Source: Eucommia ulmoides (taxonomy: Eukaryota; Streptophyta; Magnoliopsida; Garryales; Eucommiaceae). From it: a DNA stretch of 64,000 nt. The position numbers and the translations under genes are program-made. This document shows positions 37,363 through 61,546 of this stretch, in pieces. The notes under the pieces were generated by a model. The model was not told the DNA's origin, did no database searches, and saw nothing but the letters and a program-made list of their open reading frames with translations. The stretch lies in contig CM028328.1 of assembly GCA_016647705.1 (NCBI GenBank), positions 2,476,501 through 2,540,500 of the forward strand, given 5' to 3'. Numbering within the stretch: position 1 is the first letter of the stretch; every line of letters begins with the position of its first letter.

Positions 37363-37655
37363 CGATCGCTAAAAAATAATACAATTTTAATGGTACCGCG
37401 ATATTGATGTAATATAGTGTTCAAGTAGGGTGTAAAATCACAAGGATCGGTCTTATAATTATCGATTTCTAATTATTCTTATTTTCGAAATGAAAACAAA
37501 TATTGATTTGAGTTTTGAGTTTTAGTATAAGAAAAATAAAATACTAATAAAAAACAAATGGAAATAGATAATCAGGTTAGGAATTGCGGATTTCGTATTT
37601 TGGACTCATGTGGGTTTTGTATTTTCTTTTTAATTCAAATTCGTGTAAACGGGAA

Positions 37656-40083
37656 TGTTGATTCTAAGATTTTGATGGATAATTAAGTGTTAATATTTTT
37701 TATGGAATTAATGAATTTGTTGAGTATTTCAATGTAAAAATTTCATTGATGATATTATCATGAAGAAATTGTTGAAGATGCTAAGAATGCTAAGAAACTT
37801 TAAAAGAGTTGGACATTAAGAGAGTGAAGATTTTGATGAATCTAGGTGAAAACAACTCGGGTTAATTTTTACTCTTAATATATTCTGACTAGGATCACAC
37901 ACGATATAAAAATAAATTTATATTTACATGTGTTTTTATTAGGGTCCTAATTAGTTAACATATTTACCCTAATGTGAAATTAAAAAAGAAATGTTGACCT
38001 AAGAAAAATTAGTTTTTAAAATTGATTAAAAATGTCAACTAACTTAACCGAGAAAAGAAATTGGTTAAAGGTTGAAAATGTCAAAAATTGGAGTTGAAAT
38101 AAAATAAGAAAAAATGGTTCTAGCATTGATCGGTCAACAGACCAGGTAGGATCGGTTAACTGATGGCCGTAGGTTGGAAAATGGTGTAGTCTTTGAATCG
38201 ATCGGTCAACCGACTGCGGGGAGATCGGTCGACCTATGGCCGATACCTGAATTCTCTGAATCGATCGGTCGACAGACTATCGATGATCGATTGACCGACC
38301 TGGACTGAAAAAATGGCCTGGAGAACATCCTGAATCGAAAGGTCAACCAACTCATGAAATATCGATCGACTGACTGACGAATAATTTTGGCTTGGGCTAC
38401 AACCTAAATCGATCGGTCAACTAATGGGTATTGGTCGGTCAACCGATGGTTTTGTTTTAGGATTTCATGGATTTGATCTATAAGTAGCCGTTACTAGCCA
38501 TTTTTTGGTTAATATGTTGGAGATATTCTGGGAATTTGAACATATTATATATATTTTATTCATACTTAATTATCTCTTTTGATATTGTACACTTATTTTA
38601 AGTATTTCTAAAATTGGTCTTTTTAATATTTCCTATCTTATCGATTTGAGTTTGAGAAATTTTTAAGGGACTAAATTGAATATTTTGAAAGTTATAATTA
38701 AGTGTTTTGAATTAGGATTGAGTCATATCAATATATGGGGTCTATATGAGCTATTAAATGTCATATCTTGTAAGAACTGACCACTAGATGACTTGTTTCA
38801 AATCTATTTAAATAGACCTGCGCTTTTCATTTGTGAGATATCTCAATCATTCTATCAAGAGTTATTCAGTTCCTGAGCTTTCTGAAAATCATTATTCTGA
38901 AAACATAATGAGAGTTTACTGTGAGATTATTCTTGAGAATTGTTCTTTTAGAAAATTACTGAAAGTTTTGTGATCACCGATCTAAAGTTTTATTGCGATT
39001 CAGTTTTCATTCATTTAGTGGTATCCTGGTAAGATCGTTCCAAGCTTTTGCTTTTAATTGCTATTTGATATTATTATTTATTGCTTGAAGTTTTGATCTT
39101 TGTGAAATCGTTTTCTGAACGTTAAATTGCTTGAAAATATTTTAAACGATTTTTGGTAAAAATCAGATTAAGTGCTAAACTGTGTGCTACTCACTTATTT
39201 TAGAATCAGATTTTGAAATTCTCACTTTATTTCTATCACTAGTACTTATAGAGATATTAATCGAATTTAAATTAACTTGAGGTAATAGAATTTCTGAGTG
39301 AGAAAAACTTATCAATTTATTGTAATTGGTGAGTTGTGTGCGGATTAGATATTATTGGGAATATCTAATCAGGGGTAGATGTGTTTCAATTTCTTCCGGT
39401 AAAGAGATTGAAGTTTAATATTTTTCTAAGGTATAAAAATATTAGGCTACTCTTTTCCCTTGAAAAGTGATTGGTATAATTTTCCTGATTATAATTGAAA
39501 TTGAGTGAATTTGTAACAGTTCCATCCTTACCGGTGAAAATAATACTTGGAGTGATTTTTTGTGAGATTTGATTCTTACCTTAAGTATAAAAGAATTAGG
39601 TTAATATTTAGTTTGTGAAAAAAAATAGAGGTTCTTCTTTTGCCTATGAAAAGGAAATTGTAAAGGTTGATTCTGAGCCTATAAAAAAAAATCATTTTGT
39701 AAGGGTTTGGTTCCTACATGATTAAAGGAATCATAGTAGTTTAGTGGGTGCGAATGTTTGTGGGACTCGGAGGACTGGATTAGCCAAGAGTAATTTAGTA
39801 AATTAGGATATATCGTGATGTACTGTATTGTTATCTTCTTGTTTGGGTGTGCACTTAGATTTGAATACTTATCCTCTGTATTATTAAAATAATAATCGGT
39901 TTAAGATAAATTGATTAATTGATTATATTAATTGTTTGAAAATTTAAGTGTTATAAAGATAATTAATTAATTTAGAGTTAATTTAATTATTTGATTATTT
40001 AAGTGTTAAAAATTTATAATTTGATTTAGTTTTTTATAACTACCCAATTCACCCTCCCTCTTGGGTAGATTACTGGGCATCCA
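37656..40083 (+). mobile_element. Solo LTR, Copia (SIRE-like), unit A
   Basis: It starts TGTTGATTC and ends GGGCATCCA (TG...CA). The uninterrupted sequence GTAAACGAGTGTTTCTAAC at 43421-43439 gives the pre-insertion site; right flank GAGTG and left flank GGGAA (GAGAG in unit B) fit a mutated 5-bp duplication. Near the 3' end is CCAATTCACCCTCCCTCTTGG, a motif I associate with Copia SIRE-type LTR ends. No internal coding region is present. About 2.4 kb. Confidence 0.65.
38128..38455 (+). repeat. Array of GATCGGTCAACCGA words in the solo LTR
   Basis: About ten diverged copies of (C/G)ATCGGTC(A/G)ACCGA lie in pairs in units of 60-90 bp (near 38129, 38150, 38198, 38222, 38262, 38287, 38339, 38362, 38407, 38435). 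It is partly palindromic (GGTCGACC), but spacing and sequence are too irregular for a CRISPR array, which plants lack. Confidence 0.8.
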
Positions 40084-40177
40084 GAGTGTTTCTAATTATA
40101 AGCCGGAACTACTCAGAAAAATTTGATTTATTATTCTTCGGCATGATTTATTTTTGGTATGTAATTCCTACGTTACT

Positions 40178-43100
40178 GATCGCTCAAATTTAATACCCAA
40201 TTTAAGAGCAAAATATATTGTAGTATAGCGACTTAGGTAAGGGTGTCGAACCACATGGATTAGATTGTAATTATTAATTCTTTCTTATTTTTCGGTTGAA
40301 TTCAATAAAAATTGGTTTTGAGATTTTATTAATAAAAATAGAAAAATAATTAAATTAAAATATAAAATGATAAACGACTGGATTGAGGGCATGCATTCGG
40401 CTTTCGATTGTCCTAATGTGTTCTAATTCTTTATATATTTTTATTCTATGTATAGTGAAGTAATTCAACTACAAGAAAAATTACAACGAAAGCTTAACTA
40501 TTTAATTGTCATAAATTATCTTCGGAATTCGGTTCCTAATCTACTGTGAACCAATCCCTAAGTATAATTAATCTTATCAAATACGTCGATTAATCGACCG
40601 TTTAATCGATATGGATTATCTTCGGGATTCGATTCCTAATCTACGATGAATCAATCCCTAAGTATAACTCATTATATTAAACCATATCGATTCCAATAAA
40701 ACTGATTGTATAACGGTTAGATCTAAATCACAGGTATTAGATCTAACCCAAAAGTACCAATAAATTATTTATAACAATCATAAAATGATAAAAATAATAA
40801 TTTATTTCATAAACAGTGTATGAATATTAAATCTTTGTCATACAATCTTATACACAGGTAAAATAGAACAAGAATATAAAACTACATAAAGAAAATCTAG
40901 AATGAATACAGCCTAACCCGGTATAAGTCCTTAGCCGATCATGGCTTTCTTCTTTACAAGATGTATTCAACACAATCCAATTGAAGAACTCCCTCGCACA
41001 GCTTCGGCCGAAAGAAAAATTAAAAAGAAGAAAAACTAAAAAAAACTTAAAAGAAAAATAAAGGCTACCCCTCAAGTCAATGATCAGTAGCCAAAAAAAT
41101 AAAATGAAAAGTCAATCCCCTCTCTCCTCCAAGCCACCGTCTTCTTATTGGCTAAAGAAAGTAATGAATATAAAAAAAAAAACCTCCAAACCTTTTGTTT
41201 TTTATTTTTCAATCAATTCCCATTAATGGTTATAATTGTTTTCCTTAAAAACCATTCCAGCCATCTTTTTCCTTTTGTGCTTTGGTTGTTTGGATTTTAA
41301 ATACAAAATCACCCATTTAATTTCTTCAATTCCCAAAATCAACCTCTTTCACATTTTTAGTCCTTTTCGACAATTTTCTCCATCTATTTTTTCGTGTTTC
41401 TTTGTTTTCGACTTTATTCCTACAAAAATAATAAATTGTCTTATTACTAATTAAAATTAATAAAAATAATATCAAAAGTGTAGATTAAGAGTGAAAATTT
41501 AGTATAAAATTGAGAACGATTAGTTACTCTAATCTAGGGTGAATTACAATCTAGGTATAAACCGTCCAAACCAATAATTAAATTTCAATAATACGATTGT
41601 ATGATTGTTAGATCTAAAAATTTGATCGCTCAAAAATAATTCTCTTTAAATGGTACTGCAATACTGATGTAGTATGGGTGGAAGTAGGGTGTCAAATCAC
41701 AGGGATCAGTATTGTAATTATCGATTTCTAATTATTCTTCTTTCCGAAATGAAAACAAATTTTGATTTGAGTTTTGGGTTTTAATATAAAAATAAAATAA
41801 AATACTAATTGATCGTTCTCAATTTTATACCAAATTTACACTCTTAATTTATAATTTTGTTAATTTTTTTATTAAATTTTAATTAATAATAATATAATTT
41901 ACTGTTTTTGCAGATATAAGTCCGGAAATATAGAAATACTGAAAAGAGAGAAGAAACTAGTTAAAAAGAACAAAAATTGAGAAAAACCCGTAAACCGACC
42001 CAAACCTGCGACCCGAGTCCAGCCCGGCCTGCGGATCTGGCATACATGAGCGTTACTAGGACATCAAACGCAGCTGGACAATTAGTGGGGAGAGAGCTAT
42101 TTATGACCATGTATATGGACATGTAATAGTCATTCAATGCAATGAAGAAAGAATTGAAGGGATTAAGTGAAATATTTGGCAGTTTTTTTAAGGGGTTGAT
42201 TTGTTATATCATAATTCAATTTTTGGGAAGTGAAGTAGAAGACATGTGAAGGCTTACCATATATGAAGGCTTTGATTGGCCATTATGGTAAATAAATGGA
42301 AAATTAAAGGACAAGGTTATTAAAGGCAAGAAGCAAAATCAGGGGAAGAAATTGTCTTCGGCGGTGGACTAGGGGCCTTGGTCCAAAAGAAAAATGGAGG
42401 ACTTTTTGGTTTGGTTCATTTTTTTAGTTTCAGTTTTTATTCTTTTCTTTTTTTTGGTTCGGCCGAAGCTGTGCGTGGGAGTTCTTCAATTGGATTTTGT
42501 TGAATACATCTTGTAAAGAAGAAAATCATGATCGGCTAAGGACTTATACTGGGTTAGGCTGTATTCGTTTTAAGATTTCCTATGTAGTTTTAATTTCTTA
42601 TTATATTTTATATGTGTATAAGATTGTATAACGAGAATTTATGTTCTTACATTGTTTATGAAATCAATTATTGTTTTTTTCTTTTTTTTTTTTTTTATCA
42701 TTTTATGAATATTAGAAATAATTTATTAGTACTTTTGGGTTAGATCTAATACCTGTGGTGGTTTAGATCTAACCGTTATACATTCAGTTTTATTAGAATC
42801 GATACGGTTTAATATGATGAGTTATACTTAAAGATTGATTCATCGTAGTTAGTAGGAATCGAATCCCGAAGATAGTCCATACCGATTAAGCGGTCGATTA
42901 ATCGATGTATTTGATAGGATTGATTATACTTAGGAATTGGTTCACAGTAGATTAGGAACCGAATCCCGAAGATAATTCATGCCGATTAAATAGTCAGGCT
43001 TTCATTGTAATTTTTCTTGTAATTGAATTACTTCACTATACACAGAATAAAAATAGATAAAGAATTAGAACACATTAGGATAATCGAAAGCCGAATGCAT

Positions 43101-43313
43101 ACCCTCAACCCGGTCGTTTATCATTTTATATTTTAATTTAATTATTTTTATGTTTTATTATTAAAAGATCCAAAAATAAATTTATTAAACCCAACCGAAA
43201 AATAATAAAATAATTAATAATTACAATCCAATCCCTGTAGTTCGACACCCTTACCTAAGTCGCTATACTACGATATATTTTGCGCTTAAATTGGGTATTA
43301 AATTTGAGCGATC
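40178..43313. mobile_element. 3.1 kb element with about 870-bp terminal inverted repeats, unit A
   Basis: The left end GATCGCTCAAATTTAATACC and the right end GGTATTAAATTTGAGCGATC are perfect inverted repeats flanked by direct ACT (40175-40177 and 43314-43316). The arms stay alignable for roughly 870-890 bp, including GTGTCGAACCACA/TG..TTCGACACC and the CAGCTTCGGCCGAA segment near 41000 and 42463. The centre (about 41050-42425) contains two more GATCG(C/T)TC-type ends (41512, 41625, 41815), so older copies are nested. No transposase was found; superfamily not assigned. Confidence 0.75.
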
Positions 43314-44484
43314 ACTAATCTATAACAAATGAAAATAGATAACCGGGTTAGGAATTGCGGGTTTCATATTTTGGACTCATGTGGGTTCCATATTTTCTTT
43401 TTAATTCAGATTTGGGTAAACGAGTGTTTCTAACTACAAGTTGGAACTACTGAGAAAAATTCGATTTATTATTTTTCAGTATGATTTATCTTCGGTACGT
43501 AATTTCTACATTACTCTAATCGAGGGTGAATTACAATCTAAGCATAAACCATCTAAACGAATAATTAAATCTCAATAATATGATTGTATGATCGTTAGAT
43601 CTAGACCAGAAATACTATATCTAACGTTCTAGAAATAATTGAATCTAAAATTCAAAATCTCTACAATAACACCTTAAAAATAAATTCAATCACAATAAAA
43701 CTATTTCTCATCACACAATTGTTCACACACTCTCTGACGTTAAATTTAAAATACAATATTACATGAAATCCAAAATACTTACCCGAATTCTAATTTGGTT
43801 GAAGGGAGATTAGCCATCCATGAAGTGGTGTTCTTTCTCAATAATATTCAACAAAAACTTTACGAAGAATTCCCTACCAAAATACAACCGCAAAAAGAAA
43901 AAAAAAAAAAAGAAAAAAACCAAAAACAAAAATGAATAGAGGCCAAAACCTTGTTGTCCTAGCCTCCAAATAAAAAAAAGTGAATTAAATCCTCCTCCAT
44001 CTTCAATTCGAAAGAAATAAAAAAAGAATATAAAAATATTGAATCTAATTATGTCCGTCTCAACACCACTGTCCGAAGCCAATGAATTAAAGACCATTGA
44101 CTTGTTTTGATACTTTTTTCCTATTTTTACGCCTTTGATCCCCAAAAATTGATGGGGCTTAATTGTCGCCCCCTAATCCTTTGGTCTGGTTGAATTCTCC
44201 ATTTAGTGGCCAACTAATGGTCATAGCCATTAACTGGCCGCAAAGAAGAGCTGTTACACTTGTTTTCATGGATTGGGTCGGGTTGGTGGGTGTGTCCCAA
44301 CAAGTGGGCAAGTCGGATATTGCTATGTTTTTACCTTTTTTCTTTTAAATTATAGTGTTTTTGTTCGAATTTTTCAAATCTTCAAAAGTATATAAAATAA
44401 ATCAATTATACTAATTTAATTAATTAAAAAGATTAACAAAACTTAGATTGACGGTATTAGATCGGGTAAATTGTGGCGCGATCA

Positions 44485-44670
44485 ATCACGAAAACCAGTA
44501 TGAATCGATATTACCTGAAAATTGACGGCATGTAAATGTATAAATACAAAAATAAGCTTGATTAAGAGGATTATTCATATTTTCAAAGCATATTAACTTA
44601 TTCTCACGCCGGATAGTTTTTAGTCGACATTACACTGGTGTCACTTTAAGTCTTTTTGGTTGTTGCTAGT
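44485..44670 (+). other. Resumed PMD 3' flank, unit A
   Basis: TCACGAAAACCAGTATGAATC and the following bases match copy 1's flank at 33875-34070, which proves the preceding 7.1 kb is an insertion. Confidence 0.75.
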
Positions 44671-47244
44671 TGTTGGTGCGTAAAATTGATACACACCTCG
44701 AATATGGTCTAGTCGGATGACGAGTGGGTCTTCCTGCTGAAGTGGAGTCATCGGTTGAAAATTCCTTGAGTAAGTTGTACTGGGTCCTAAGAGGACTAAC
44801 CTGCTTCATCCAGAGTTCTGCTCCTCAAGGAGTGTACCTTTAGAAGGCTCAGACCGGGATTCATTCCGGTGAAACTCTTTCGGCGCGATAATTAGTGCTC
44901 AGAGAGAAAAGGTACAGTAAAACAAGTAAACAAATGAACTCGTGCGTAATGTAAGCGTATTCAAACGTACCTCAGACTTGCATAGCCCCCGATATATATA
45001 GGAGTTAGAGACGATTAATCGGACCTAAACAAGGTCAATTAGTTGAAACCCTGTATTTAGCTGATAATCTGGAATGTTTAGGAGATAATCGCTGAGCTTA
45101 GGCTTTTAGGCCCATTAGGCAAATCTCGTGGGCCTTTATCAAACTGGAAGTTGTTCACAAAAGTGGATCATCCCTACAGAAATTGCACTTCAGCTAGTTA
45201 GTGTTCCGCAGGTGCCTAAGCGGCATATTCTCTTTTGTTTCAAGATTGTATGCGCCTAGACATGTGACCCTAGTGACTTTGTATGTCTCTAGAGTTAAAT
45301 CCACCGTGGATGTGGTTGATTTTATCATCCACACGCTAGTGATCCTCTCTGGCCTGAGCCCCTCCGGGGTGTTGGATAGTTGCGGTTTCCCCTTCTTCTT
45401 TAGGCCCAGGGCTCTCCCTGTGGTTCATCCCCGTCAGGCTACTCCTGATTTTCTCTCCAGACGTAGTTCCAGAGATAGCCTCTTCGGATAAGAGTTTCAA
45501 TTTCCTGCCGAAGCTGGAAACAGTTCTTTGTGGAGTAACCTTGATCTTGGTGGAACTTACAGTATTGGTTCATCGATCTCCCGACCGGACTTCCCCTCAG
45601 GGGTGAAGGAGGAGGGAAGAAGTCTTGCCCTGAATTTTCTGTAAAGACGGTGACCACTGAGACTGTGAGCGGAGTGAACTCTGGTTGGTGATGCCCTGGA
45701 AGAAAAAATGGCCTCTTGTCTCCGGACAGGGGTCTAAACCTCCCTTCAACTCGTAATCTTCTTGAGTCTTGGGCTTGATTTGAACCTCCATTTCCTGGTT
45801 CCCTCAACTTGTTTGCTCATTCCCGCCATCTCTTGGTTGCAGCACGGAGGTCAGCACCATAGAATCTAGTCCCACGGTCTAGAGCTTGATCGAGAGTTGG
45901 AGCAGGGTTGGAGTAGAGGTCGTAGGATAATCTTTGATGCCGGAGGCTATCAACAAAGTTATTTAGCGCAACAGTGTTAGGAAGGCTGTCTCACATATTT
46001 GCTTCTCAGTTGAAATACTCAACGTAATCACCCAAAGATTCAGTGGGCTCTTGTCGAAGAGTGAGGATATGAGCCACAGTCCTTGGTCTCCGCCGGGAGC
46101 GGATGAAACGAGCCAGGAACAACTGCTCGAGTTCCCTAAAGGTGGAGATGGACACGGTTCTCAAACTCGAAAACTACGTTCTTGCTGCACCTATAAGGGT
46201 GATAGGAAAGGCTCTGTATCCCAAAGTTACAGAGGCCACTTACATGTCCATATGAGACTTGAATATAGGCAGGTGGTCAACGGGATCTGAAGTCCCATCG
46301 CACGGACTCATCTAGGGTTGGGTGAAGTGCCTTGACGCTATTTCTTCCAAAACCGCATCCACAAAAGGAGAATTAACCTCTGGAATAACACCTGGTCATA
46401 CCCGTTCTCCTTGCACCTCCTGGAGACAGGCTTCCATGTTGGCCAGGCAGCGCACTACCGCCTCCCCTGCTTGGGGCTTTCCCTGGATCCGACTGCCCGC
46501 ACCTCGGGCCGCAGAGTAATGGGAGGAAGATAAGTAGGAGTCAATTTCATGCTCACGCCAACCTCTGTGATCGGACCTGGTAGGCCGATGAAGAGCTCGA
46601 TCATTAGGGGACACCGACGTATCCCTTGGCACAAACTCGAGTGGCAAAAAATGTAAAGATTTTGGCATTGTAGGGGGGCCCTCTCATGTCCTGCAAACTC
46701 AAGGTTGCGAGGTATAGGGCGGTCATCGGGCTCCCTGCCTATTTGGAGTGTCCATGAAAACATCATGATCTTGAGGTGGCTCCTCAGGCGTTGCGGGCTG
46801 GAAGACTGGTCCACTCTAAACAGATGGCGATGGCAAGTGCGCAAGGAGGAGTTGTACATTCGACTTGAACTCTTGCATTTAGTGTTCAAGGAAATCAACT
46901 CGAGATGTCTCCACAGCTCTAGAGGTATATCCCGCAACCCCAGGTGGCAGAGTGGATGGTCCTGCCTGACCATGGAGGGGGCAATTATCCACGTTGGTGG
47001 GAGTTGGAGGGTGTGCCCTTGGATCTTTTGACATGTCTTCTGATTCTTCTGTTTTGTGTCTATCTGACTAGACTTTGTGATAATTTAAACTCAGCTGAGC
47101 AGAGAGCAGTGATCAAAGCAAGGATTTTTGCACGGTTCCCATAAACGGTGCCAAATTGTTGATGCGTAAAACTGGTACACACCTCGACTATGGTCCAATT
47201 GGATGACAGGTGGGTCCTCTTATTGAAGTGGAGTCGTCGATTGA
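44671..47244 (-). mobile_element. Gag-only Gypsy-type LTR retrotransposon remnant, unit A
   Basis: On the minus strand the order is: truncated 5' LTR (47155-47244, only its last 90 bp), a primer-binding-site-like TTGGCACCGTTTATGG at about 47138-47153, a broken gag region, and a 3' LTR beginning somewhere near 45200 and ending ...CGCACCAACA at 44671. The 90-bp remnant matches 44671-44760. A zinc knuckle YCKFHQDQGYSTKNC lies within 45439-45807, followed by QLRQEIETLIRRGYL, typical of plant Gypsy gag. No protease, RT, RNase H or integrase was seen. A TATA-like CTATATATATCGGGGG lies at 44988-45003 on the minus strand within the LTR. Confidence 0.75.
45439..45807 (-). pseudogene. Retrotransposon gag C-terminal fragment with zinc knuckle, unit A
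   Basis: A 122-aa open stretch with a complete C-x2-H-x(4)-G-x(4)-C-like knuckle (CKFHQDQGYSTKNC) and the following RQEIETLIRRGYL helix. The upstream gag_N part is split by frameshifts and stops, so no full Gag can be made. Confidence 0.75.
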
Positions 47245-48235
47245 CGAGTGAGTCCAATCGTGTCAGGCAGAGAATTTGAGCTTCGATTTCTGGTCATTCT
47301 CACTCAAAAACCTCACTCGAAAATTTGTATTTGGGCTCACTCGTGAGCTAGGCGTGCCGCCGTCGAGCTGCGGCACCATAATCTATAACCGGGTGATTCC
47401 ATTTTGTCCCTAGTTACTCCGTAGTAATCTATAACCGACTAATTTTGTGCCGATTTTGTTGTCCGTAATCTACAACCGGTCGATTACTCTGCAGAAAATG
47501 TCCTGTCCGTCGGCGATTGAATCCAAAGAGCCGCCGGACCTTATTCCACCCCCTCTCTCTCTATCTCCAATAGTGGAAGCAGAATCGATCCTACACCCCA
47601 TTTGGATCTCATCAAGCATCGCCATCACCTGAACCATCGTCAGCCTTTTCCATGGTCGATCATCCAAAACAAGCACAATCTACCTTCAAATGTTGTAATA
47701 ACTCAATCTCTAAACTTGACGACCCAAATCCATCGCTAGTGGAAGAAAGAGAGAGAAAAAAGAGGTTGGGGTGTTCTCTAGCAATAAAGGAGAATGAGGA
47801 AGAGGAAAATGAAAGAGGTGGGTGCCTAAAATTTCCAACGAGGAAGCAGTGGGTGATTTTTGGGCTTGGAAATTCAAGGAGGCGCATGTGATTTAGGGCT
47901 GGACATTCAAGAATGACTAAAGGAGACCGCTGTAAAATTTTAAGATTGCCATGGTAGAGATGGGTTTTAGGGATATTGTAATAGGGGTGTTATTGTAAAT
48001 AATAAAAAGAAGAAAATATATTTAAAATAAATTTAAGGAATTATTTATGTATTTTTGTCTTTGATTATTTAATATTTTTAAATAACTAAAGGTAAAATTG
48101 TTATTATAATAAAAAATTCTTAATTTTTCGTTTATGGGGGACTAAGTGATCTTAGACCAAAATGATAAGAAATATGACTGGTATTTGTAAAATGACAGGA
48201 AAGATATTACATGTCGAAATTAAAAGAATAAGGGC
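47245..48235. other. Upstream block of PMD copy 3
   Basis: It carries 'TAATCTATAACCG' repeats near 47381, 47425 and 47467, the BRI1 fragment, a GA-rich segment (about 47740-47820) and AT-rich DNA. The whole block is repeated at 61011-61939. No intact gene was seen. Confidence 0.5.
47565..47735 (-). pseudogene. BRI1-like receptor kinase C-terminal fragment, unit A
   Basis: The minus strand reads SLEIELLQHLKVDCAC, then after a +1 shift LDDRPWKRLTMVQVMAMLDEIQ and RIDSASTI. This matches the end of the kinase domain and start of the tail of BRI1-type brassinosteroid receptors (family pattern ELLQHLKVA.ACLDDR.W.RPTMVQVMAMFKEIQ..SGIDSQSTI). One extra T in the TGTTTTGGATGA segment breaks the frame. 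Only about 57 codons are present, beside the retroelement. Confidence 0.75.
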
Positions 48236-48268
48236 TAAAGTGAAATTTCACTTAAATTGCAAAAGGCT

Positions 48269-48277
48269 CTATATAAT
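48269..48277 (+). promoter_or_regulatory. Putative TATA box of PMD copy 3
   Basis: CTATATAAT lies 116 bp before the ATG at 48393 in the promoter core shared with copies 2 and 4; it is followed by TTAGCTTAGCATGG and a CT-rich leader. Confidence 0.5.
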
Positions 48278-48339
48278 ATGTTTATGTTAGCTTAGCATGG
48301 AAGATTCATCCGGAATTACCGCTTCGAATTCCCCGTTTT

Positions 48340-48377
<38 letters not shown>

Positions 48378-48392
48378 CATTTGATTTCAGAA

Positions 48393-50645
48393 ATGGCGGC
48401 CTTGTCGGAAGACGATACAATCATCATCGAAGAGAGAGAGGAGTTGATGGTGTCACCCACCGGCAGCGGTGACCCAATTCTCAGAATCGCGCATTTTCTG
48501 AAACCCTCCACTTCCGTACCACTCTCCGATCATCATTTGCCTCCCAGTCCCAACCCATCTCCGCCCACCATTTTTTCCGACCCCAAGAAACGGCCGTTTA
48601 AGGCGGAGTTCAGAGGCTGGAGAAGCCCGCAAAACGACTGGAAATCATGGGTTCATCGGATGCATTCTCTGCACCAATCGACGTGGAGGAACTCCGGCAT
48701 TCACGACGCCGTACTGAACTCGACTTACAAAATCGAGCGAAACGACGCCATGGTTTTTGGGTTCGCCGGAAAATGGTGTTCCGACACCAATTCCTTTGTG
48801 TTTCCTTGGGGGGAAGCGACGGTTACTCTGGAAGACATGGTGGTTTTGGGGGGTTACTCTGTTTCCGGCGACTCTGTTTCTATCCCTCTGAAAACAGAGA
48901 TTTCGAAGAAATCCATGAAAAATTGCTTCAAGCTAGACTTCAACTCGTAAGAACATCTTCTCAATGGAAGAATCATTTCATGAACAGCGGGAGCGAAATC
49001 GAGCACGAAGCCTTCATCGCATATTGGCTCTCCAGGTATGGCTTGCCGTCATCTCCACATGACACCATTACCAAAGAGTATTTCCCCATAGCCATTCATC
49101 TAGCTAGAGGCACTAAAATCGCACTTGCGCCTGCCGTTAGCTAGCATTTACAGAGATTTAAGCTTGTTGAAACAATCAATTGTGGATTCAATTAGGATTA
49201 AGAACACTGAATTTGAACAAAAATCAAGAGAAATTGTGATTTGGGCACCTCTTCAATTGGTTCAAATTTGGGTTTGGGAGAGATTTCCATCACTCAGACC
49301 GAAACCCAATTCGCCAATTAATCAAATTGAGCCAAGAATGGCGAGATGGAATGGATTGAAGAACAGAAAAATCGAGAATTTGAATTCGATTCTCGACTCT
49401 GCTTCAGAGGAGTTTCAATGGCGTCCATATGCAATTTCCATGAACAACACCACTCCACCTTTCAAATTTTACCAAGAACATGAACAATGGGAAACCGTTG
49501 ATTCGGATTTGGACGAACAAATCGAGTCATTTTCTCGATTTTTGAGGGTATCCGAATTGGTTGGATTTGATTGTGTAGAGCAATATCTCCCACACCGAGT
49601 TGCATTGCAATTCGGGATCGATCAAGATATTCCTCATTGTGTAAAGAGAACGAATCGAAATTCGAAAACCGGTTGGAAAAATTATACAAGGCCAATTGGG
49701 GATTCAAAATTGTATGTTCCCCCAAGGCTTTTCGAGCCTAGTGTTACTCTTCGATATTTGGAGTGGTGGAAACGATCAAACTTCGATGATTTGAAAAATA
49801 TGCGGTCAAAAAAGATAATTTTGTTAATTTCAGATGAAGACGAAGGCAGTGAGGAGGATGAAGATCACCGTGATGACGATGATAGTGATGATGACCTAAC
49901 GGTCGCCGAGGCATGTAGGAAGAGAAGAAGACAAAATTGTGAGAAGTCATCTTCTTCAATTGCTGATAATGAAGATGTTGAAAACATGAAGTCTACAAAA
50001 GAACCCGAAAGAGAAATTTTCGATGGGCAATCTTCAAGTGAAAGATTAGAGGAAAACGTCATGGAAGATGAAACTAATCTTCTCGATGAGGAAGATGTAA
50101 CGGTTTCGAGGCTTGAAAATCGGATTAGGAAGCTTGAAAACACGTCGGAAGGGAAATCAAACAAAAAGGGGGTCAATAGTGTAAATTTTCCTCCCGGTTT
50201 TGAACGGAGGGAAAGCACGAGGGAAGGGAAAGGAAATGGAAACGAAGAGAGAAATGATATTGGCTTTGCTGATTTTCCTCTCGGTTTCGAAAGGAATGAA
50301 AATGCATCGGAAGAGAAATCAAATGAAAAAGGAAATGGAAAGAGAAAGGGAAATGATCTCGAGATTTTCAATTTTCCTCCCGGTTTTGAAAGCAAACATA
50401 GCAAATTGAAAGCGAAATCGAGTCGAAATGAAGAGGGAAATCAAAATATAGGGGTGATAAATGCGAATGACATCGAAAATAGAGGATTTGGAATGATAAA
50501 AGGATTGGAAAAACCAGTATCGGAAATAGAAGGAAGAACGATCGAGATACCGTGGCTTGAGCTCGAAGAAAGGATTAGGGAGACTGAAAAAATGATGAAT
50601 CAACTTGAATCAGCAAAATTTAGCAATAGTTTTTTTTTTTCCTAA
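48393..50645 (+). pseudogene. Plant mobile domain gene, array copy 3, frameshifted hybrid
   Basis: The gene aligns throughout with copy 2. Relative to copy 2 it has a 1-bp loss in an A run (A5 to A4, 48891-48894), an in-frame 18-bp loss near 48962, and a 2-bp loss near 49138. The first shift leads to a stop at 48948-48950, about 185 codons in; the second returns the original frame, so about 250 bp are out of frame and the rest (from about 49139) is open to 50645. A 9-bp in-frame insertion near 49447 is unique. The first half matches copy 4, the second half copy 2, including the three FPPGF-type motifs. It could still give a truncated N-terminal PMD protein. Confidence 0.85.
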
Positions 50646-51183
50646 ACCTGCCTAAATAACAAATTTGGACTCCTCTAAGTGTAATTAATTTAAGGGCATA
50701 GCGTGTTCATATTCCACCCCTTAAATTGTTCCTATTTAGCATTGAACCCTCTCTTCTTCATCTTCATCTTTCTTTTTCTTTTTCTTTTTTTAATAAGATT
50801 ATTGAAGTTTATGAAAATTTCCCTATTGAATTTGTTATCTCCAAGGATTCTAACTATTTTTCATTTTTCCCTTTTGAAAAATTATGTTTTGTTCTTAGAA
50901 ATAGAACTATCGCACAACTAACATTGTAAGGTATTGATATAGGTAGAATTTTCGTCCATCAACCTTCTGGCTATAAAGAAACATGATGGTTGGATCCAAT
51001 TGCGGGCCAAACTGCAAAAAGAGCATAATGATCCGTTGGATCTTTGATTAGTCGGCCAAATAGATTATATGAAGAATTACTCGGTCCAGAAGTGGAAATT
51101 CGATAGGAAATTCATCTGACCCATCTAGCACTTAGGTTCACCTGAGAAAGATGAGGCTAAACAGAAGTTTTGCGCTCTACCCA
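50646..51183 (+). other. 3' flank of PMD copy 3, before the nested insertion
   Basis: Near-identical to 36839-37362; homology with copy 1's flank again stops at CTACCCACC|GATCGC. No gene was seen. Confidence 0.7.
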
Positions 51184-51477
51184 CCGATCGCTAAAAAATA
51201 ATACCATTTTAATGGTACCGCGATATTGATGTAATATAGTGTTCAAGTAAGGTGTAAAATCACAAGAATCGGTTTTATAATTATCGATTTCTAATTATTC
51301 TTATTTTCGAAATGAAAACAGATATTGATTTGAGTTTTGAGTTTTAGTATAAGAAAAATAAAATACTAATAAAAAACAAATGGAGATAGATAATCAGGTT
51401 AGGAATTGCGGATTTTGTATTTTGGACTTATGTGGGTTTTGTGTTTTCTTTTTAATTCAAATTTGTGTAAACGAGAG

Positions 51478-53881
51478 TGTTGATTCTAAGATTTTGATGA
51501 ATAATTAAGTGTTGATATTTTTTTATGGAACTAATGAGTTTGTTAAGTATTTCAATGTAAAAATTTCATTGATGATATTATCATAAAGAAATTGTTGAAA
51601 ATGCTAAGGATGCTAAGAAACTTTAAAAGAGTTGGACATTAAGAGAGTGAAGATTTTGATGAATCTAGGTGAAAACAATTCAGGTTAATTTTTACTCTTA
51701 ATGTATCATGACTAGGATTACACACGACATAAAAATGAATTTATATTTACATGTGTTTTTATTAGGGTCCTAATTAGTTAACATATTTGCCTTAATGTGA
51801 AATTAAAAAAGAAATGTTGACCTAAGAAAAATTAGTGTTTAAAATTGATTAAAAATGTCAACTAAGTTAACCGAGAAAAGAAATTAGTTAAAGGTTGAAA
51901 ATGTCGAAAATCGGAGTTGAAATAAAATAAGAAAAAGTTGTTCCAGCATTGATCGGTCAACCGACCAGGTAGGATTGGTTAACCGATAGCCGTAGGTTGG
52001 AAAATGGTGTAGTCTTTGAATCGATCGGTCAACCGACCGAGGGAACCTATGGCCGATACCTTAATTCTCTAAATCGATCAGTCGACAAACTATCGATGAT
52101 CGGTTGACCGACCTGGGCTGAAAAAATGTCCTGGCAAACATCTTGAATCGAAAGGTCAACCAACTCATGGAATATCGGTCGACTGACTGACGAATAATTT
52201 TGGCTTGGGTTACAACCTAAATCGATCGGTCAACTGATGGGTATTGGTCGGTCAACCGATGGTTTTGTTTTAGGATTGGAGGATTTCGTGGATTTGATCT
52301 ATAAGTAGTCGTTACTAGCCATTTTTTAGTTGATATGTTGGAGATATTCTGTGAATTTGAACATATTATATATATTTCATTCATATTTAATTATCTCTAT
52401 TGATATGGTACACTTATTTTAAGTGTTTCTAAAATTGGCATTTTTAATATTTCCTATTTTATTGATTTGAGTTTGAGAAATTTTTAAGGAACTAAATTGA
52501 ATATTTTGAAAGCTATAATTAAGTGTTTTGAATCAGGATTGAGTCATATCAATATATGGAGTCTATATGAGCTATTAAATGTCATATCTTGTAGGAACTG
52601 ACCGCTAGAGGACTTGTTTCAAATCTATTTAAATACACCTGCGCTTTTCATTTGTGAGATATCCTAATTATTCTATCAAGAGTTATTCAGTTCCTGAACT
52701 TTCTGAGAATCATTATTCTGAAAACATAATGAGAGTTTACTGTGAGATTATTCTTAAGGAAAATTACTGAAAGTTTTGTGATCACCGATCTAAAATTTCA
52801 TTGCGATTCAGTTTTCATTCGTTTAGTGGTATCCTGGTAAAATCGTTCCAAGCTTTTGCTTTTAATTGCTATTTGATATTATTATTTATTGCTTGAAGTT
52901 TTGATCTTTGTAAAATCGATTTCTGAACGTTAAATTGCTTGAAAATATTTTAAACGATTTTTGGTAAAAATATGATTACGTGTTAAACTGTGTACTACCC
53001 ACTTATTTTATAATCAGATTTTGAAATTCTCACTTTATTTCTATCACTAGTACTTATCGAGACATTAATCGAGTTTAAATTAACCTGAGGTAATAGAAGT
53101 TTTGAGTGAGAAAAATTTATCAATTTATTGTAATTGGTGAGTTGTGTGCGGATTAGATGTTATTGGGAATATCTAATCAGGGGTAGATGTGTTTCAATCT
53201 CTTCCGGTAAAGAGATTGAGGTTTAATATTTTTCTAAGGTATAAAAATATTAGGCTACTCTTTTCCCTTGAAAAGCGATTGGTATAATTTTCCTGATTAT
53301 AATTGAAATTGAGTGAATTTGTAACAGTTCCATCCTTACCGGTGAAAATGATACTCGGAGTGATTTTTTGTAAGGTTTGATTTTTATCTTAAGTATAAAA
53401 GAATTAGGTTAATCTTTAGTTTGTAAAAAAGTTAGAGGTTCTTCCTTTGTCTATGAAAAGGAAATTGTAAAGGTTAATTCTGAGCCTGTAAAAAAAATCA
53501 TTTTGTAAGGGTTTGGTTCCTACATGATTAAAGGAATCATAGTAGTTTAGTGGGTGAGAATCTTCGTGGGACTCGGAGGACTGGATTAGCCAAGAGTAGT
53601 TTAATAAATCAGGATATATTGTGATATACTGTATTGTTATCTTCTTGTTTGGGTGTGCACTTAGATTTGAACACTTATCCGCTGCATTATTAAGATAATA
53701 ATCGATTTAGGATAAATTGATTAATTATTTAAATTAATTGTTTAAAAATTTAAGTGTTATAAAGATAAATAATTAATTTAGGGTTAATTTAATTATTTAA
53801 GTGTTAAAAATTTATAATTTGATTTAGTTTTTTATAACTACCCAATTCACCCTCCCTCTTGGGTAGATTACTGGGCATCCA
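51478..53881 (+). mobile_element. Solo LTR, Copia (SIRE-like), unit B
   Basis: TGTTGATTC...GGGCATCCA, flanked by GAGAG at the left and GAGTG at the right (5-bp target duplication with one change). It contains the GATCGGTCAACCGA word array at 51952-52262 and the CCAATTCACCCTCCCTCTTGG motif near the end. 2404 bp. Confidence 0.65.
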
Positions 53882-53975
53882 GAGTGTTTCTAACTACAAG
53901 TCGGAACTACTCAGAAATATTTGATTTATTATTCTTCGGCATGATTTATTTTTGGTATGTAATTCCTACGTTACT

Positions 53976-56900
53976 GATTGCTCAAATTTAATACCCAATT
54001 TAAGTGCAAAATATATCGTAGTATAGCGACTTAGGTAAGGGTGTCGAACCACAGGGATTGTATTGTAATTATTAATTCTTTCTTATTTTTCGGTTGAATT
54101 TAATAAAAATTGGTTTTGAGACTTTATTAATAAAAATAGAAAAATAATTAAATTAAAATATAAAATGATAAACGACCGGGTTGAGGGCATGCATTCGGCT
54201 TTTGATTGTCCTAATGTGTTCTAATTCTTTATATATTTTTATTCTGTGTATAGTGAAATAATTCAACTACAAGAAAAATTACAACGAAAGCTTAACTATT
54301 TAATCGGCATGAATTATCTTCGGGATTCAGTTCCTAATCTACTGTGAACCAATCTCTAAGTATAATTAATCTTATCAAATACGTCGATTAATCGACCGTT
54401 TAATCGGTATGGATTATCTTCGGGATTCGATTTCTAATATATGATGAATCAATCCTTAAGCATAACTCATCATATTAAACCGTATCGATTACAATAAAAC
54501 TGATTGTATAACAGTTAGATCTAAACCACAGGTATTAGATCTAACCCAAAAGTACCAATAAATTATTTATAACATTCATAAAATGATAAAAATAATAATT
54601 GATTTCATAAACTGTGTAAGAACATTAATCTTTGTCATACAATCTTATACACAGGTAAAATAGAACAAGAATATAAAACTACATAAAGAAAATCTAGAAT
54701 GAATACAGCCTAACCCAGTATAAGTCCTTAGCCGATCATGGTTTTCTTCTTTACAAGATGTATTCAACACAATCCAATTGAAGAATTTCCCCACACAGCT
54801 TCGGCCGAAAGAAAAATTAAAAAGAAGAAAAACTAAAAAAAACTTAAAAGAAAAACAAAATGAAAAGTCAATCCCCTCTCTCCTCCAAGCCACCGTCTTC
54901 TTATTGGCTAAAGAAAGCAATGAATATAAAAAAAACCCTCCAAACCTTTTGTTTTTGATTTTTCAATCAATTCCCATTAATGGTTATAATTGTTTTCCTT
55001 AAAAACCATTCCAGCCATCTTTTTCCTTTTGTACTTTGGTTGTTTGGATTTAAAATACAAAATCACCCCTTTTATTTCTTCAATTCCAAAAATCAACCTC
55101 TTCCACATTTTTAGTCCTTTTCGACTATTTTCTCCGTCTATTTTTTCGTGTTTCTTTATTTTCAACTTTATTCCTGCAAAAATAATAAATTATCTTATTA
55201 CTAATTAAAATTAATAAAAATAATATCAAAAGTGTAGATTAAGAGTGAAAATTTAGTATAAAATTGAGAACGATCAGTTACTCTAATCTAGGATGAATTA
55301 CAATCTAGGTATAAACCGTCCAAACCAATAATTAAATCTCAATAATATTATTGTATGATTGTTAGATCTAAAAATTTGATCGTTAAAAAATAATTCTCTT
55401 AAAATGGTACCGCAATACTAATGTAGTATGGGTGCAAGTAGGGTGCTAAATCACAGGGATCAGTATTGTAATTATCGATTTTTAATTATTCTTCTTTCCA
55501 AAATGAAAACAAATTTTGATTTGAGTTTTGGGTTTTAATATAAAAATAAAATAAAATACTAATTGATCGTTCTCAATTTTATACCAAATTTACGCTCTTA
55601 ATTTATAATTTTGTTAATTTTTTTATTAAATTTTAATTAATAATAATATAATTTACTGTTTTTGCAGATATAAGTCCGAAAATATAGAAATACTGAAAAA
55701 AAAAAAAAGAAAATAGTTAAAAAGAACAAAAATTGAGAAAAACCTGTAAACCGACCCAAACCTACGACCCGAGTCCAGCCCGGCCTGCGGATCTAGCATA
55801 CATTCGCGTCACTAGGACATCAAACGCACCTGGACAATTAGTGGAGAGAGAGCTATTTATGACCATGTATACGGACATGCAATAGTCATTCAATGCAATG
55901 AAGAAAGAATTGAGGGGATTAAATGAAAAATTCAACAGTTTCTTTAAGGGGTTGATTTGCTATATCATGATTCAATTTTTGGGAAGTGAAGTAGAAGACA
56001 TGTGAAGGCTTACCATATATGAAGGCTTTGATTGGCCATTATGATAAATAAATGGAAAATTAAAGGACAAGGTTATTAAAGGCAAAAAGCAAAATCAAGG
56101 GAATAAACTGTCTTTGGCGGTGGACTTATAGGGCGCTTGGTCCAAAAGAAAAAGGGAGGACTTTTTGGTTTGGTTCATTTTTTTAGTTTTAGTTTTTATT
56201 CTTTTCTTTTTTTTGGTTCGGTCGAAGCTGTGCATGGGAGTTCTTCAATTGGATTTTGTTGAATACATCTTGTGAAGAAGAAACCCATGATCGGCTAAGG
56301 ACTTATATTAGGTTAGGCTGTATTCGTTTTAAGATTTCCTATGTAGTTTTAATTTCTTATTATATTTTATCTGTGTATAAGATTGTATAACGAGGATTTA
56401 TGTTCTTACATTGTTTACGAAATCAATTATTTTTTTATTTTTTTATCATTTTATGAATATTAGAAATAATTTATTGGTATTTTTGGATTAGATCTAATAC
56501 CTGTGATTTAGATCTAACCGTTATACAATCAGTTTTATTGGAATCGATACGATTTAACATGATAAGTTATGCTAAGGGATTAATTCATCGTAGTTAGTAG
56601 GAATCGAATCCCAAGGATAGTCCATACCGATTAAACGTTCGATTAATCGATGTATTTGATAGAATTAATTATACTTAGGGATTGGTTCACAGTAGATTAG
56701 GAACCGAATCCCGAAGATAATTCATACCGATTAAATAGTTAAGCTTTCGTTATAATTTTTCTTATAGTTGAATTACTTCACCATACACAGAATAAAAATA
56801 GATAAAGAATTAGAGCACATTAGGATAATCGAAAGCCGAATGCATACCCTCAACCCGGTCGTTTATCATTTTATATTTTAATTTAATTATTTTTATGTTT

Positions 56901-57057
56901 TATTATTAAAGGATTCAAAAATAAATTTATTAAACCCAACTGAAAATAATAAAATAATTAATAATTACAATCTAATCCCTGTGGTTCGACACCCTTACCT
57001 AAGTCGCTATACTACGATATATTTTGCGCTTAAATTGGGTATTAAATTTGAGCGATC
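53976..57057. mobile_element. 3.1 kb element with long terminal inverted repeats, unit B
   Basis: The ends GATTGCTCAAATTT and AAATTTGAGCGATC are flanked by direct ACT (53973-53975 and 57058-57060). It is the duplicate of 40178-43313, 54 bp shorter. Confidence 0.75.
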
Positions 57058-58426
57058 ACTAATCTATAACAAATGAAAATAGATAACCGGGTTAGGAATT
57101 GCGGGTTTCATATTTTGGATTCATGTGGGTTCCGTATTTTCTTTTTAATTCAGATTTGGGTAAACAAATGTTTCTAACTACAAGCCGGAACTACTCAGAA
57201 AAATTCGATTTATTATTCTTCAGCATGATTTATCTTCGGTATGTAATTTCTACATTACTCTAATCTAGGGTGAATTACAATCTAAACATAAACCATCTAA
57301 ACGAATAATTAAATCTCAATAATATGATTGTATGATCGTTAGATCTAGACCAGAAATACTAGATCTAACGTTCTAAAAATAATTGAATCTAAAATTCAAA
57401 ATCTCTACAATAACACCCTAAAAATAAATTCAATCACAATAAAATTATTTTTCATCACACAATTGTTCACACACTCTCTGACATTAAATTAAAAATATAA
57501 TATTACATGAAATTCAAAATACTTACCCAAATTCTAATTTGGTTGAAGGGAGATTAGCCGTCCATGAAGTGGTGTTCTTCCTCAATAATATTCAACAAAA
57601 ACTTTACGAAGAATTCCCTACCAAAATACAACCGCGAAAAGAAAAAAAAAAAAAAACCAAAACAAAAATGAATAAAGGCCAAAACCTTGTTGTCCTAGCC
57701 TCCAAATAAAAAAAAAGTGAATTAAATCCTCCTCCATTTTCAATTCGAAAGAAATAAAAACGGAATATAAAAATATCGAATCTAATTATGTCCGTCTCAA
57801 CACCACTGTTCGAAGCCAATGAATTAAAGACCATTGAAAACCAAATGAATGACATCACTTGTTTTGATACTTTTTTCCTTTTTTACGCCTTTGATCCCCA
57901 AAAATTGATTGGGCTTAATTGTCGCCCCCTAATCCTTTGGTCTGATTGAATTCTCCATTTAGTGGCCAACTAATGGTCATAGCCATTAACTGGCCGCAAA
58001 GAAGAGATGTTACACTTGTTTTCGTGGATTGGGTCGGGTTGGTGGGTGCGACCCAACAGGTGGGCAAGTCGGATATTGCTATGTTTTTACCTTTTTTCTT
58101 TTAAAGTATAGTGTTTTTGTTCCAATTTTTCAAATCTACAAAAGTATATAAAATAAATCAATTATACTAATTTAATTAATTCAAAAGATTAACAAAACTT
58201 AGATTGACGGTATTAGATCGGGTAAATTGTGGCGCGATCAATCACGAAAGCCAGTATGAATCGATATTACCTGAAAATTGACGGCATGTAAATGTATAAA
58301 TACAAAAATAAGTTTGATTAGGAGGATTATTCATATTTTCAAAACATATTAACTTATTATCATGCAGGATAGTTTTTAGTCGACATTACACTGGTGTCAC
58401 TTTAAGTCTTTTTGGTTGTTGCTAGT

Positions 58427-61010
58427 TGTTGGTGCGTAAAACTGATATACACCTCGAATATAGTCCAGTCGGATGACAAGTGGGTCATCCTGCTGAAGTG
58501 GAGTTGTCGGTTAAAAATTCCTTGAGTGAGTTGTATTGGGTCCTAAGAGGACTAACCTGTTTTATCCAGAGTTTTGCTCCTTAAAGAGTTCTGCTCCTCA
58601 AGGAGTGTACCTGTAGAAGATTCAGACCGGGATTCATTCTGGTGAAACCTCTCCGGCACGATAATCAGTGCTCAAAGGAAAAAGGTATAGTAAAGCAAGT
58701 AAACAAATGAACTCGTACGTAATGTAAGCGTATTCAAACGTACCTCAGACTTGCATAGCCCCCGATATATATAGGAGTTAGAGATGATTAATCGGGCTTA
58801 AACAAGGTCAATTAGTTGAAATCTTGTATTTAGCCGATAATCTAGAGCGTTTAGGAGATAATCGCTGAGATTAGGCTTTTAGGCCCATTAGGCAAATCCC
58901 GCAGGCCTTTATCAAACTGGAAGTTGTTCACAAAAGTGGATCATCCCTACAGAAGTTGCACATAAGCTAGTTAGCGTTCCACAGGTGCCTAAGCGACATA
59001 TTCTCTTTTGTTTCAAGATTGTATGCGCCTAGACGTGTAACCCTAGTGACTCTGTATATCTCTAGAGTTGAATCAACCGTGGATGTGGTTGATTTCACTA
59101 TCCACACGCTAGTGATCCTCTCAGGCCTCAGCCCCCCCGGGGCGATGGATAGTTGTGGTTTCCCCTTCTTCTCTGGGCCCAGGGCTCTCCCTGTGGTTCA
59201 TCCCCGTCAGGTTGCTCCTGATTTTCTCTCCAGACGTAGTTCCGAATATAGCCTCTTCGGATAAGAGTTTCAATCTCCTGCCGAAGCTGGAAATAGTTCT
59301 TTGCGAAGTAACCTCGATCTTGGTGTAACTCACAGTATTGGGTCATCGATTTTCCGACCGGCCTCCCCCTCAGGGGTGAAGGAGGAGGAAAGAAGTCTTG
59401 TCCTGAGTTTTCTGTAAAGACAGTGGCCACTGAGACAGTGAGTGGACTGAACTTTGGTTGGTGACGCCCTGGAGGAAAAAATGGCCTCTTGTCTCCGGAT
59501 AAGGGTCTAAACCTCCCTTCAGCTCGTAATCTTCTTGAGTATTGGGCTTGATTTGAACGTCCATTCCTTAGTTCCCTCGACTTGTTTGCTCATTCCCGCC
59601 ATCTCTTAGTTGTAGCACGGAGGTCAGCACCATAGAATCTAGTCCCACGGTCTAGAGCTCGATCGAGAGTTGGAGCAAGGTTGGAGCAGAGGTCGTGGGA
59701 TAATTTTTGATACTGGAGGCTATCAACAAAGGCATTTAGCGCAACAGTGTTAGGAAGGTCGTCGCACATATTTGCTTCTCGGTTGAAATGCTCAACGTAA
59801 TCACCCAAAGATTCAGTGGGCTCTTGCCAAAGAGTGAGGATATGAGCCACAGTTCTCGGCCTCCGTTGGGAGCGGATGAAACGAGCCAGGAACAACTGCT
59901 CGAGCTCCCTAAAGGTAGAGATGGATGCTGTCCTCAAACTCTAGAACCACGTTCTTGCTGCACCTATGAGGGTGATAGGAAAGGCTCTGTATCGCAAAGC
60001 TAAAGAGGCCACTCGCATGTCCATATGAGACTAAACATAGGTAGGTGGTCAACGGGATCTGAAGTCCCATCGCACGGACTCATCTGGGTGAAGTGCCTTG
60101 ACGCTACTTCTTCCAAAACTGCATCCACAAAAGGAGAATTAACCTTCGGAATAACACCTGGTCATACCCGTTCTCCTTGCACCTCCTGGAGACAGGCTTC
60201 CATGTTGGCCAGGCAGCGTACTACCGCCTCCCCTGCTTGGGGCTTTCCCTGGATCCGACTGTCCGTACCTCGGGCCGCAGGGTAATGGGAGGAAGATAAG
60301 TAGGGGTCAACTTCACGCTCACGCCAACCTTTGTGATCGAACTTGGTAGGCCGATGAAGAGCTCGATCATTAGGGGACACCGACGTATCCCTTGGCACAA
60401 ACTCGAGTGGCAAAAAAGGTGAAGATCTTGGCATTGCAGGGGGGCCCTCTCCTGTCCTGCAAACTCAAGGTTGCGAGGTATAGGGCTGTCATTGGGCTCC
60501 CTGCCCGTTTGGAGTGTCCATGAAAACATCACGGTCTTGAGATGGCTCCTTAGGCGTTGCGGGCTAGAAGACTGGTTCACTCTAAACAGAGGGCGATGGC
60601 AAGCACGCAAGGAGGAGTTGTACATTCGACTTGAACTCTTGCATTTAGCGTTCAATGAAATCTACTCGAGATGCCTCCACAACTCCAGAGATCTATCCCA
60701 CAGCCCCAGGTGGCAGAGTAGATGGTCCTGCCTGACTATGGAGGGGGCAATTATCCTCATTGGTGGAAGTTGGAGGGTGTGCCCTTGGATCTTTTGACAT
60801 GTCTTCTGATTCTTTTGTTTTGTGTCTATCTGACTAGACTTTGTGATCACCTAAGCTCAGCTGAGCAGAGAGTAATGATCAGAGGAAGGATTTTTGCACA
60901 GTTCCCATAAATGGTGCCAAACTGTTGGTGCGTAAAGCTGGTACACACCTCGACTATGGTCCAATCGGATGACAGGTGAGTCCTCTTGCTGAAGTAGAGT
61001 CGTCGGTTGA
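58427..61010 (-). mobile_element. Gag-only Gypsy-type LTR retrotransposon remnant, unit B
   Basis: Duplicate of 44671-47244 with the same truncated 5' LTR (60923-61010) and the TTGGCACC primer-binding-like site next to it. The gag pieces are better preserved in the N-terminal part here and worse in the zinc knuckle. Confidence 0.75.
59590..59937 (-). pseudogene. Retrotransposon gag (Retrotrans_gag domain) fragment, unit B
   Basis: A 115-aa open stretch with the plant gag core FRELEQLFLARFIRSQRR, ILTLWQEPTESLGDYVEHFNRE and AFVDSLQYQKLSHDL, the pattern of PF03732. It is followed by a stop and, at 59128-59430 on the minus strand, by a knuckle in which the last Cys is Tyr (CELHQDRGYFAKNY). The gag is therefore inactive. 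Confidence 0.8.
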
Positions 61011-61508
61011 TGGGTGAGTCCAATCGTGTCAGGCAGAGAATTTGAGCTTCGATTTCTAGTCATTCTCACTCAAAAACCTCACTCAAAAATTTGTATTTGG
61101 GCTCACTCGTGAGCTAGGCGTGCCGCCGTCAAGCTACGGCACCGTAATCTATAACCGGGTGATTCCATTTTTTCCCTAGTTACTCCGTAGTAATCTATAA
61201 CCGACCAATTTTGTGTCGATTTTGTTGTCTGTAATCTACAACCAGTCGATTACTCCGCAGAAAACGTCCTATCCGCCGGCGATTGAATCCAAGGAGCCGC
61301 CAGACCTTATTCCACCCTCTCTCTCTCTCTATCTCCAATAGTGGAAGCAGAATCGATCCTACACCCCGTTTGGATCTCCTCAAGCATCGGCATCACCTGA
61401 ATCATCGTCAGCCTTTTCCATGGTCGATCGTCCAAAACAAGCATAATCTACCTTCAAATGTTGTAATAACTCAATCTCTAAACTCGACGGCCTAGATCCA
61501 TCGCTAGG

Positions 61509-61546
<38 letters not shown>

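Follow-up and report, generated by a model that had tools for sequence, protein, structure and literature searches.

How did a gene that resembles its downstream neighbour on the left and its upstream neighbour on the right come to lie between the two? The question is raised by the third of four plant mobile domain (PMD, PF10536) genes of Eucommia ulmoides that lie within the window, the stretch of 64,000 nucleotides analysed here, which covers positions 2476501-2540500 of a 57-Mb contig in a genome of 947 Mb. Copy 3 (plus strand, 48393-50645) has a mosaic structure of the 4/2 type and a broken reading frame. The initial annotation held that it was a hybrid of copies 2 and 4.

The other three genes are also on the plus strand. 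Copy 1 (30697-33366) is intact, encodes 889 amino acids and has a long repeat tail of the FPPGF type, related to those of copies 2 and 3. Copy 2 (34562-36838), intact in a single open frame of 758 amino acids, is of the type that donated the right half of copy 3. Copy 4 (62086-63881) is of the left-half donor type, is devoid of the FPPGF tail, and has a frame broken by the loss of one base from a run of five A (A5-to-A4), which it shares with copy 3. Spacing is ~13.8 kb between copies 2 and 3 and ~13.7 kb between copies 3 and 4, and a 13.8-kb unit is repeated with 93% identity. Spacer Y, between copies 1 and 2 (33367-34389), has parts that recur, split by a transposon, in the spacer between copies 2 and 3. 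The latter, X1 (36839-48236), consists of pieces of Y together with transposon pieces at 37363-44486 and 44666-47244, and its second copy, X2 (50659-61939), has a mixed history.

The array runs on downstream of the window, where positions beyond 64,000 are window coordinates continued downstream. Found there are two copy-1-like stretches (72594-75566 and 108222-111193), copy 5 (81328-83604), copy 6 (95500-97761; C4:2572000-2574261), which encodes 753 amino acids, and the 5'-truncated copy 7 (127451-128813). The frames of copies 1, 2, 5 and 6 are open and those of copies 3 and 4 are broken. A repeat-rich region of open reading frames (ORFs) lies upstream of copy 1 at 20910-27447, with similar regions at 68389-71354 and 99637-107054. 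Since all or part of this region is found again upstream of the other copy-1-like genes, the array also grew in larger blocks.

PF10536 scored above the Pfam curated cut-off in all six pieces tested from copies 1-4 and was the only Pfam match at E up to 0.001, with no phosphatase domain among the matches at that threshold. In this domain the array resembles the PMD genes MAIN and MAIL1 (PMC7156037), with E values of 4.1e-111 for copy 1 and 1.5e-112 for copy 2. It differs from that account, in the portion of the paper drawn on here, in the FPPGF repeat tail, of which that portion makes no mention, and in that no domain besides PF10536 was matched in the array copies at this threshold.

When copies 2, 3 and 4 are aligned, a switch from copy-4 sites to copy-2 sites along copy 3 is visible. 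Over 48237-49130 copy 3 shares 32 substitutions with copy 4 and 8 with copy 2, with 6 private to itself; over 49131-50143 it shares 42 with copy 2 and 8 with copy 4, with 7 private. The best single break falls between 49130 and 49143, with a maximum chi-square of 36.9 that none of 20000 shuffles reached, and coding sites alone gave 21.8, again with 0/20000 shuffles as high. The copy-2 states that had been listed for the right part, at 49143, 49184, 49195, 49312 and 49327 and in the FPPGF tail, are all present, and a further one given as 49309 is at 49308. The posterior for the 49130-49143 interval, computed from substitutions of the three copies with gapped columns left out, is 0.28 when the 5' flank is included and 0.10 for coding sites alone.

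The initial annotation had placed the junction within about 12 bp. A comparison of three copies can misplace a junction, as two of the markers cited for it, at 48412 and 49130, are private to one copy. The C at 49130 is common to copies 3-7, the change being confined to copy 2; the D codon at 48412 is common to copies 3-6 (copy 7 does not reach it), leaving copy 2 again as the odd one. With copies 5, 6 and 7 added, 49057 is likewise private to copy 2. These two states thus drop out of the evidence for a copy-4 left half, and the A5-to-A4 loss (after 48890) and an 18-bp loss (after 48960) stand, both being found only in copies 3 and 4. Also exclusive to this pair are nine substitutions, the first at 48426 and the last at 49049, and a tenth at 48532, where copy 6 is gapped. 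Exclusive to copies 2 and 3 are 48679 and then 49143, 49184, 49195, 49327, 49784 and 49803. The last substitution exclusive to copies 3 and 4 is therefore 49049 and the next exclusive to copies 2 and 3 is 49143, and because 49057 and 49130 are copy-2-private rather than copy-4 states, the switch lies within 93 bp, at 49050-49142 on the plus strand. The 19 exclusively shared characters (12 joining copy 3 to copy 4, 7 joining it to copy 2) have one member out of order, 48679, an arrangement with an exact p of 0.0006. The data show a single left-to-right switch of ancestry, downstream type on the left and upstream type on the right, with exceptions at 48679 and at 49514 and 49657, where copy 3 has copy-4-like states inside its copy-2 part.

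Trees of copies 2-6 agree with these sites on both donors and polarity. For the copy-4-type part (48393-49049, plus strand), copies 3 and 4 group with a bootstrap of 100 and a grouping of copies 2 and 3 is rejected (AU p 0.001). The copy-2-type part, which includes the FPPGF tail, extends over 49143-50645 on the plus strand; for 49143-50143 copies 2 and 3 group with a bootstrap of 98 and a grouping of copies 3 and 4 is rejected (AU p 0.005). The two parts do not share one tree, and the claim of a hybrid is upheld by these conflicting trees and by the chi-square switch. On comparison of the paralogues, the left part of copy 3 is shown to be sister to copy 4, and the right part with the 3' flank sister to copy 2. 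Judged in this way, copy 3 is a true recombinant of two paralogues from one tandem PMD array. That no exchange took place, and that a single tree was distorted by uneven rates, with copy 2 fast on the left and copy 4 fast on the right, has scarcely any probability left. Three copies alone would leave room for it, and nothing specific speaks for it, but it is contradicted by the shared losses that join copies 3 and 4 on the left, by the six exclusive sites right of the junction that join copies 2 and 3 against copies 4-7, and by the AU rejection of the opposite grouping on each side.

Copy 3 also carries changes of its own. A cluster at 49440-49529 on the plus strand contains five copy-3-private substitutions and a 9-bp insertion (49448-49456) within 90 bp (p 0.015). 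A search for a donor with one exact 20-base sequence that spans the insertion gave a single occurrence genome-wide, in copy 3 itself; it looks as if the cluster had been imported from an unseen copy. A single assembly is the sole source of the sequence, and a false join of copies 2 and 4 during assembly could be imagined, but it is very improbable, as private changes of copy 3 lie in both halves, spacers X1 and X2 differ by 4.9-8.2% over ~10 kb, the contig is 57 Mb long, and a second hybrid with a different junction exists in copy 6.

The junction was further said to be marked by a missing CT dinucleotide. This loss, at 49137, is private to copy 3, has several possible placements in the local sequence and does lie within the junction interval. 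Its standing as a scar is not supported: counting the two copy-3-private indels of 48393-50143, of which the 9-bp insertion is the second, the chance that the deletion falls inside the interval is p ~0.10 for 93 bp (0.014 for 12 bp), and we do not regard it as a proven trace of the crossover. A two-T difference in the T run at 50635 is beyond the range compared (48393-50143). Together the CT deletion and the A5-to-A4 loss remove a net three bases, but the first frameshift already reaches a stop at 48948-48950. As assembled, copy 3 is a pseudogene, a hybrid without evident function because its frame is broken by a frameshift shared with copy 4. An A common to copies 3 and 4 (48947-48951; 62640-62644) forms the stop that follows the frameshift and also a GTAAG similar to a 5' splice site, a candidate at most.

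If one unequal crossover had doubled the spacer, X1 and X2 should be sisters throughout. Part of the array reads N, and the comparison covers the remainder. In the 3' flank and the start of the transposon, a split of X1 and X2 from two further spacers, X3 and X4, is found at 23 sites, and the other splits at 0 and 1. For 37363-39033, when seven further genomic copies of the element serve to root the tree, (X1,X2),X3 is obtained at 99/96 and the alternatives have AU p 0.019 and 0.021. X1 and X2 are thus sisters over 36838-39033. In 44666-47244, analysed with twelve other copies, they are not: the tree is (X1,X3),X2 at 98/94, with X1-X2 at AU p 0.021 and SH p 0.064 and X2-X3 at AU p 0.069. In 47245-48236 the departure is weak, (X2,X3) being best at 83/83 with X1-X2 at AU p 0.0365 and SH p 0.104 and X1-X3 at 0.219. 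The spacer AU rejections are moderate (p 0.02-0.04) and uncorrected, with KH and SH above 0.05 for 44666-47244 and 47245-48236. Since the trees differ along the spacer, at least one further exchange is likely.

The transposon pieces deserve description in their own right. The stretch 37363-44486 is a 7.1-kb insertion in the copied spacer; CAC borders it at either end and may be a 3-bp target duplication, and its 37363-39033 part belongs to a high-copy family with 13925 first-look candidates in the genome. The stretch 44666-47244 is a fragment of a high-copy element (4704 first-look candidates) whose reverse-strand ORFs resemble retrotransposon gag; one ORF, 46455-46973, had no Pfam match.

The initial annotation had unequal crossing-over explain the array "exactly", and one version of this is that copy 3 and the second spacer arose together in a single unequal crossover of copies 2 and 4, which left the CT loss as its scar. 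The donors, the order, the polarity and the spacer tree at the left end all fit, and the rejections in the other spacer segments are only moderate. A single crossover for the whole unit is nevertheless disfavoured, and we think it quite unlikely: the spacer trees conflict with X1-X2 sisterhood in 44666-47244 and 47245-48236, the CT loss has the p of ~0.10 given above, and both sides of the junction are free of substitutions while spacer copies overall differ by 2-8%.

This last contrast bears on the age of the parts. We compared unit 1 (right half of copy 2, X1, left half of copy 3) with unit 2 (right half of copy 3, X2, left half of copy 4). Within the gene they differ by 1.85% in the right part and by 1.6% over 48237-49130, and within the spacer by 2.3% in the 3' flank, 5.5% in 37363-39033, 7.0% in 43794-47244 and 7.5% in 47245-48236. 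The excess divergence of the transposon is mostly transitions, and as transposon DNA may mutate faster, the 3' flank is the only fair yardstick. Directly beside the junction there are 0 substitutions against copy 4 over 347 bp on the left and 0 against copy 2 over 309 bp on the right (joint p ~1e-6, on uniform placement and with clustering ignored), as opposed to 2.3% in the 3' flank and 5.5% in 37363-39033, in a stretch where the other copies are also poor in changes and beside a transposon that may mutate faster. Private changes in 48784-49439 stand at 0/12 in copy 3, 2/11 in copy 2, 2/34 in copy 4, 2/15 in copy 6 and 11/27 in copy 5. With only two private changes each in copies 2, 4 and 6, the paucity of substitutions may partly belong to the stretch itself, and for this reason and that of uniform placement later conversion is less well supported than p ~1e-6 would imply. 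The pattern is that expected of conversion, short near-identical tracts between paralogues in more diverged surroundings, again with the reserve that the other copies are change-poor there, and it suggests, but does not prove, a younger exchange around the junction.

Average conversion tracts of 200-500 bp are cited for yeast and rodent cells, and crossover and conversion can give the same outcome in simple assays (PMC3924818, in the part used here). Gene conversion alone is a serious rival. It would have copy 3 begin as a whole gene of one type, or as an older copy-6-like hybrid, and later take up patches of copies 4 and 2, the junction having formed without a crossover. The substitution-free 347 and 309 bp are close to the quoted tract lengths, and the copy-4-like states at 49514 and 49657 and the private cluster at 49440-49529 would be at home in a patchwork. 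Copies 2 and 4 differ at dS 0.057 and 0.060 in the gene core and at 0.15 at the right end, and they also differ at 15 sites in the 5' flank; the low divergence of the core beside that of the ends points to an earlier conversion of the core. We nonetheless hold conversion alone to be possible rather than likely, as the spacer itself is doubled and the copy-2 state runs through the tail, the 3' flank and ~1.7 kb of transposon, which is long for one tract. In all, the copy-2-type tract extends for at least 3.7 kb (35319-39033 versus 49131-52840: right half of the gene, 3' flank and transposon start). As this exceeds the average tracts quoted in that part of PMC3924818, a crossover is likelier for the right-half step.

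We find it moderately probable that the 4/2 order goes back to unequal crossing-over and that the core was later retouched by gene conversion. On this view a gene like copy 2 crossed over unequally with one like copy 4, which would have produced the order 2-(4/2)-4 together with a copy of the spacer. Subsequent conversion, with copies 3 and 4 as partners on the left and copies 2 and 3 on the right, would then have modified ~650 bp about the switch, and part of a spacer would have been replaced in one or more additional exchanges. Against this combination of crossover and conversion it must be said that the trees do not assign the later steps, and that the copy-4-like states at 49514 and 49657 lie within the copy-2 part.

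Copy 6 counts in favour of crossover followed by conversion, as a second hybrid of matching polarity. The 5' flank of copy 3 (48237-48392, plus strand) is of a type common to copies 4 and 6 and not to copies 2 and 5, and the 15 flank sites, at 48244-48358, are those with a state common to copies 2 and 5 alone. In copy-3 coordinates, copy 6 goes with copies 4 and 7 at 49308, 49312, 49574, 49605, 49651 and 49669, and at 25 sites in 49697-50143 with a state found in copies 4 and 7 alone it sides with copies 2, 3 and 5. By these sites copy 6 is a second, intact hybrid with the polarity of copy 3, and its switch lies between 49669 and 49697. Copies 3 and 6 may descend from one older hybrid, as the (X1,X3),X2 tree of 44666-47244 would have it, but against this the spacers pair block by block, X1 with X2 and X3 with X4, and copy 6 lacks lesions common to copies 3 and 4.

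Judged by its matches, copy 2 seems to be a fusion in its own right: its body is copy-4-like, and its tail corresponds to the final repeats of an FPPGF tail of the copy-1 kind. The stretch 32839-33370 of copy 1 matches 36301-36838 of copy 2 at 88.7%, and the sole match of at least 200 bp between copies 1 and 4, among the matches listed, is 222 bp at 68%; within copy 2, the matches to copy 1 and to copy 4 overlap only in 36301-36326. Further on, 33301-33877 matches 36767-37362 at 87.4% and 33875-34069 matches 44487-44665 at 79.5%, so that X1 contains pieces of spacer Y in their original order, interrupted by the transposon. Such pieces would be left if copy 1 had earlier crossed over unequally with a gene like copy 4, in which case copy 3 would have arisen in two rounds or more.

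The arrangement resembles the anti-Lepore arrangement of the globin genes, in which unequal crossing-over in a tandem pair gives a hybrid gene. As there, the order is upstream gene, hybrid, downstream gene, and the hybrid has the 5' part of the downstream gene and the 3' part of the upstream gene, with the intervening DNA doubled. Unlike there, the spacer copies appear to lack one shared history, the surroundings of the junction look younger than the spacers, and the hybrid is broken. The array is also like cases of interlocus gene conversion and concerted evolution as described in the part of PMC3924818 used here, in its short difference-free tracts, its mosaic copies and a core less diverged than the flanks; the copy-2-type stretch of at least 3.7 kb, above the average tracts quoted, sets it apart.

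A search of titles and the beginnings of abstracts in the open-licence literature gave, among the matches listed, no hybrid PMD genes in a tandem array. Copy 3 is an ordinary case, a further example of the known exchange of DNA between repeated genes, and a clear one of mosaicism between paralogues; no new function is implied for it. A broader reading, which we put forward tentatively and as unlikely on present evidence, is that fusions of one kind keep arising in the array, with a promoter and N-terminal PMD body of the copy-4 type and an end, FPPGF tail included, of the copy-2 type. Copies 3 and 6 would have been formed independently, in two sister blocks and at different points, and copy 2, fused earlier with copy 1, would have the same polarity; promoters and tails would be shuffled in this way, with intact products such as copy 6 kept and others lost. 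Where one array offers several fusions for direct comparison, crossover and conversion in the tandem genes of plants could become easier to separate.
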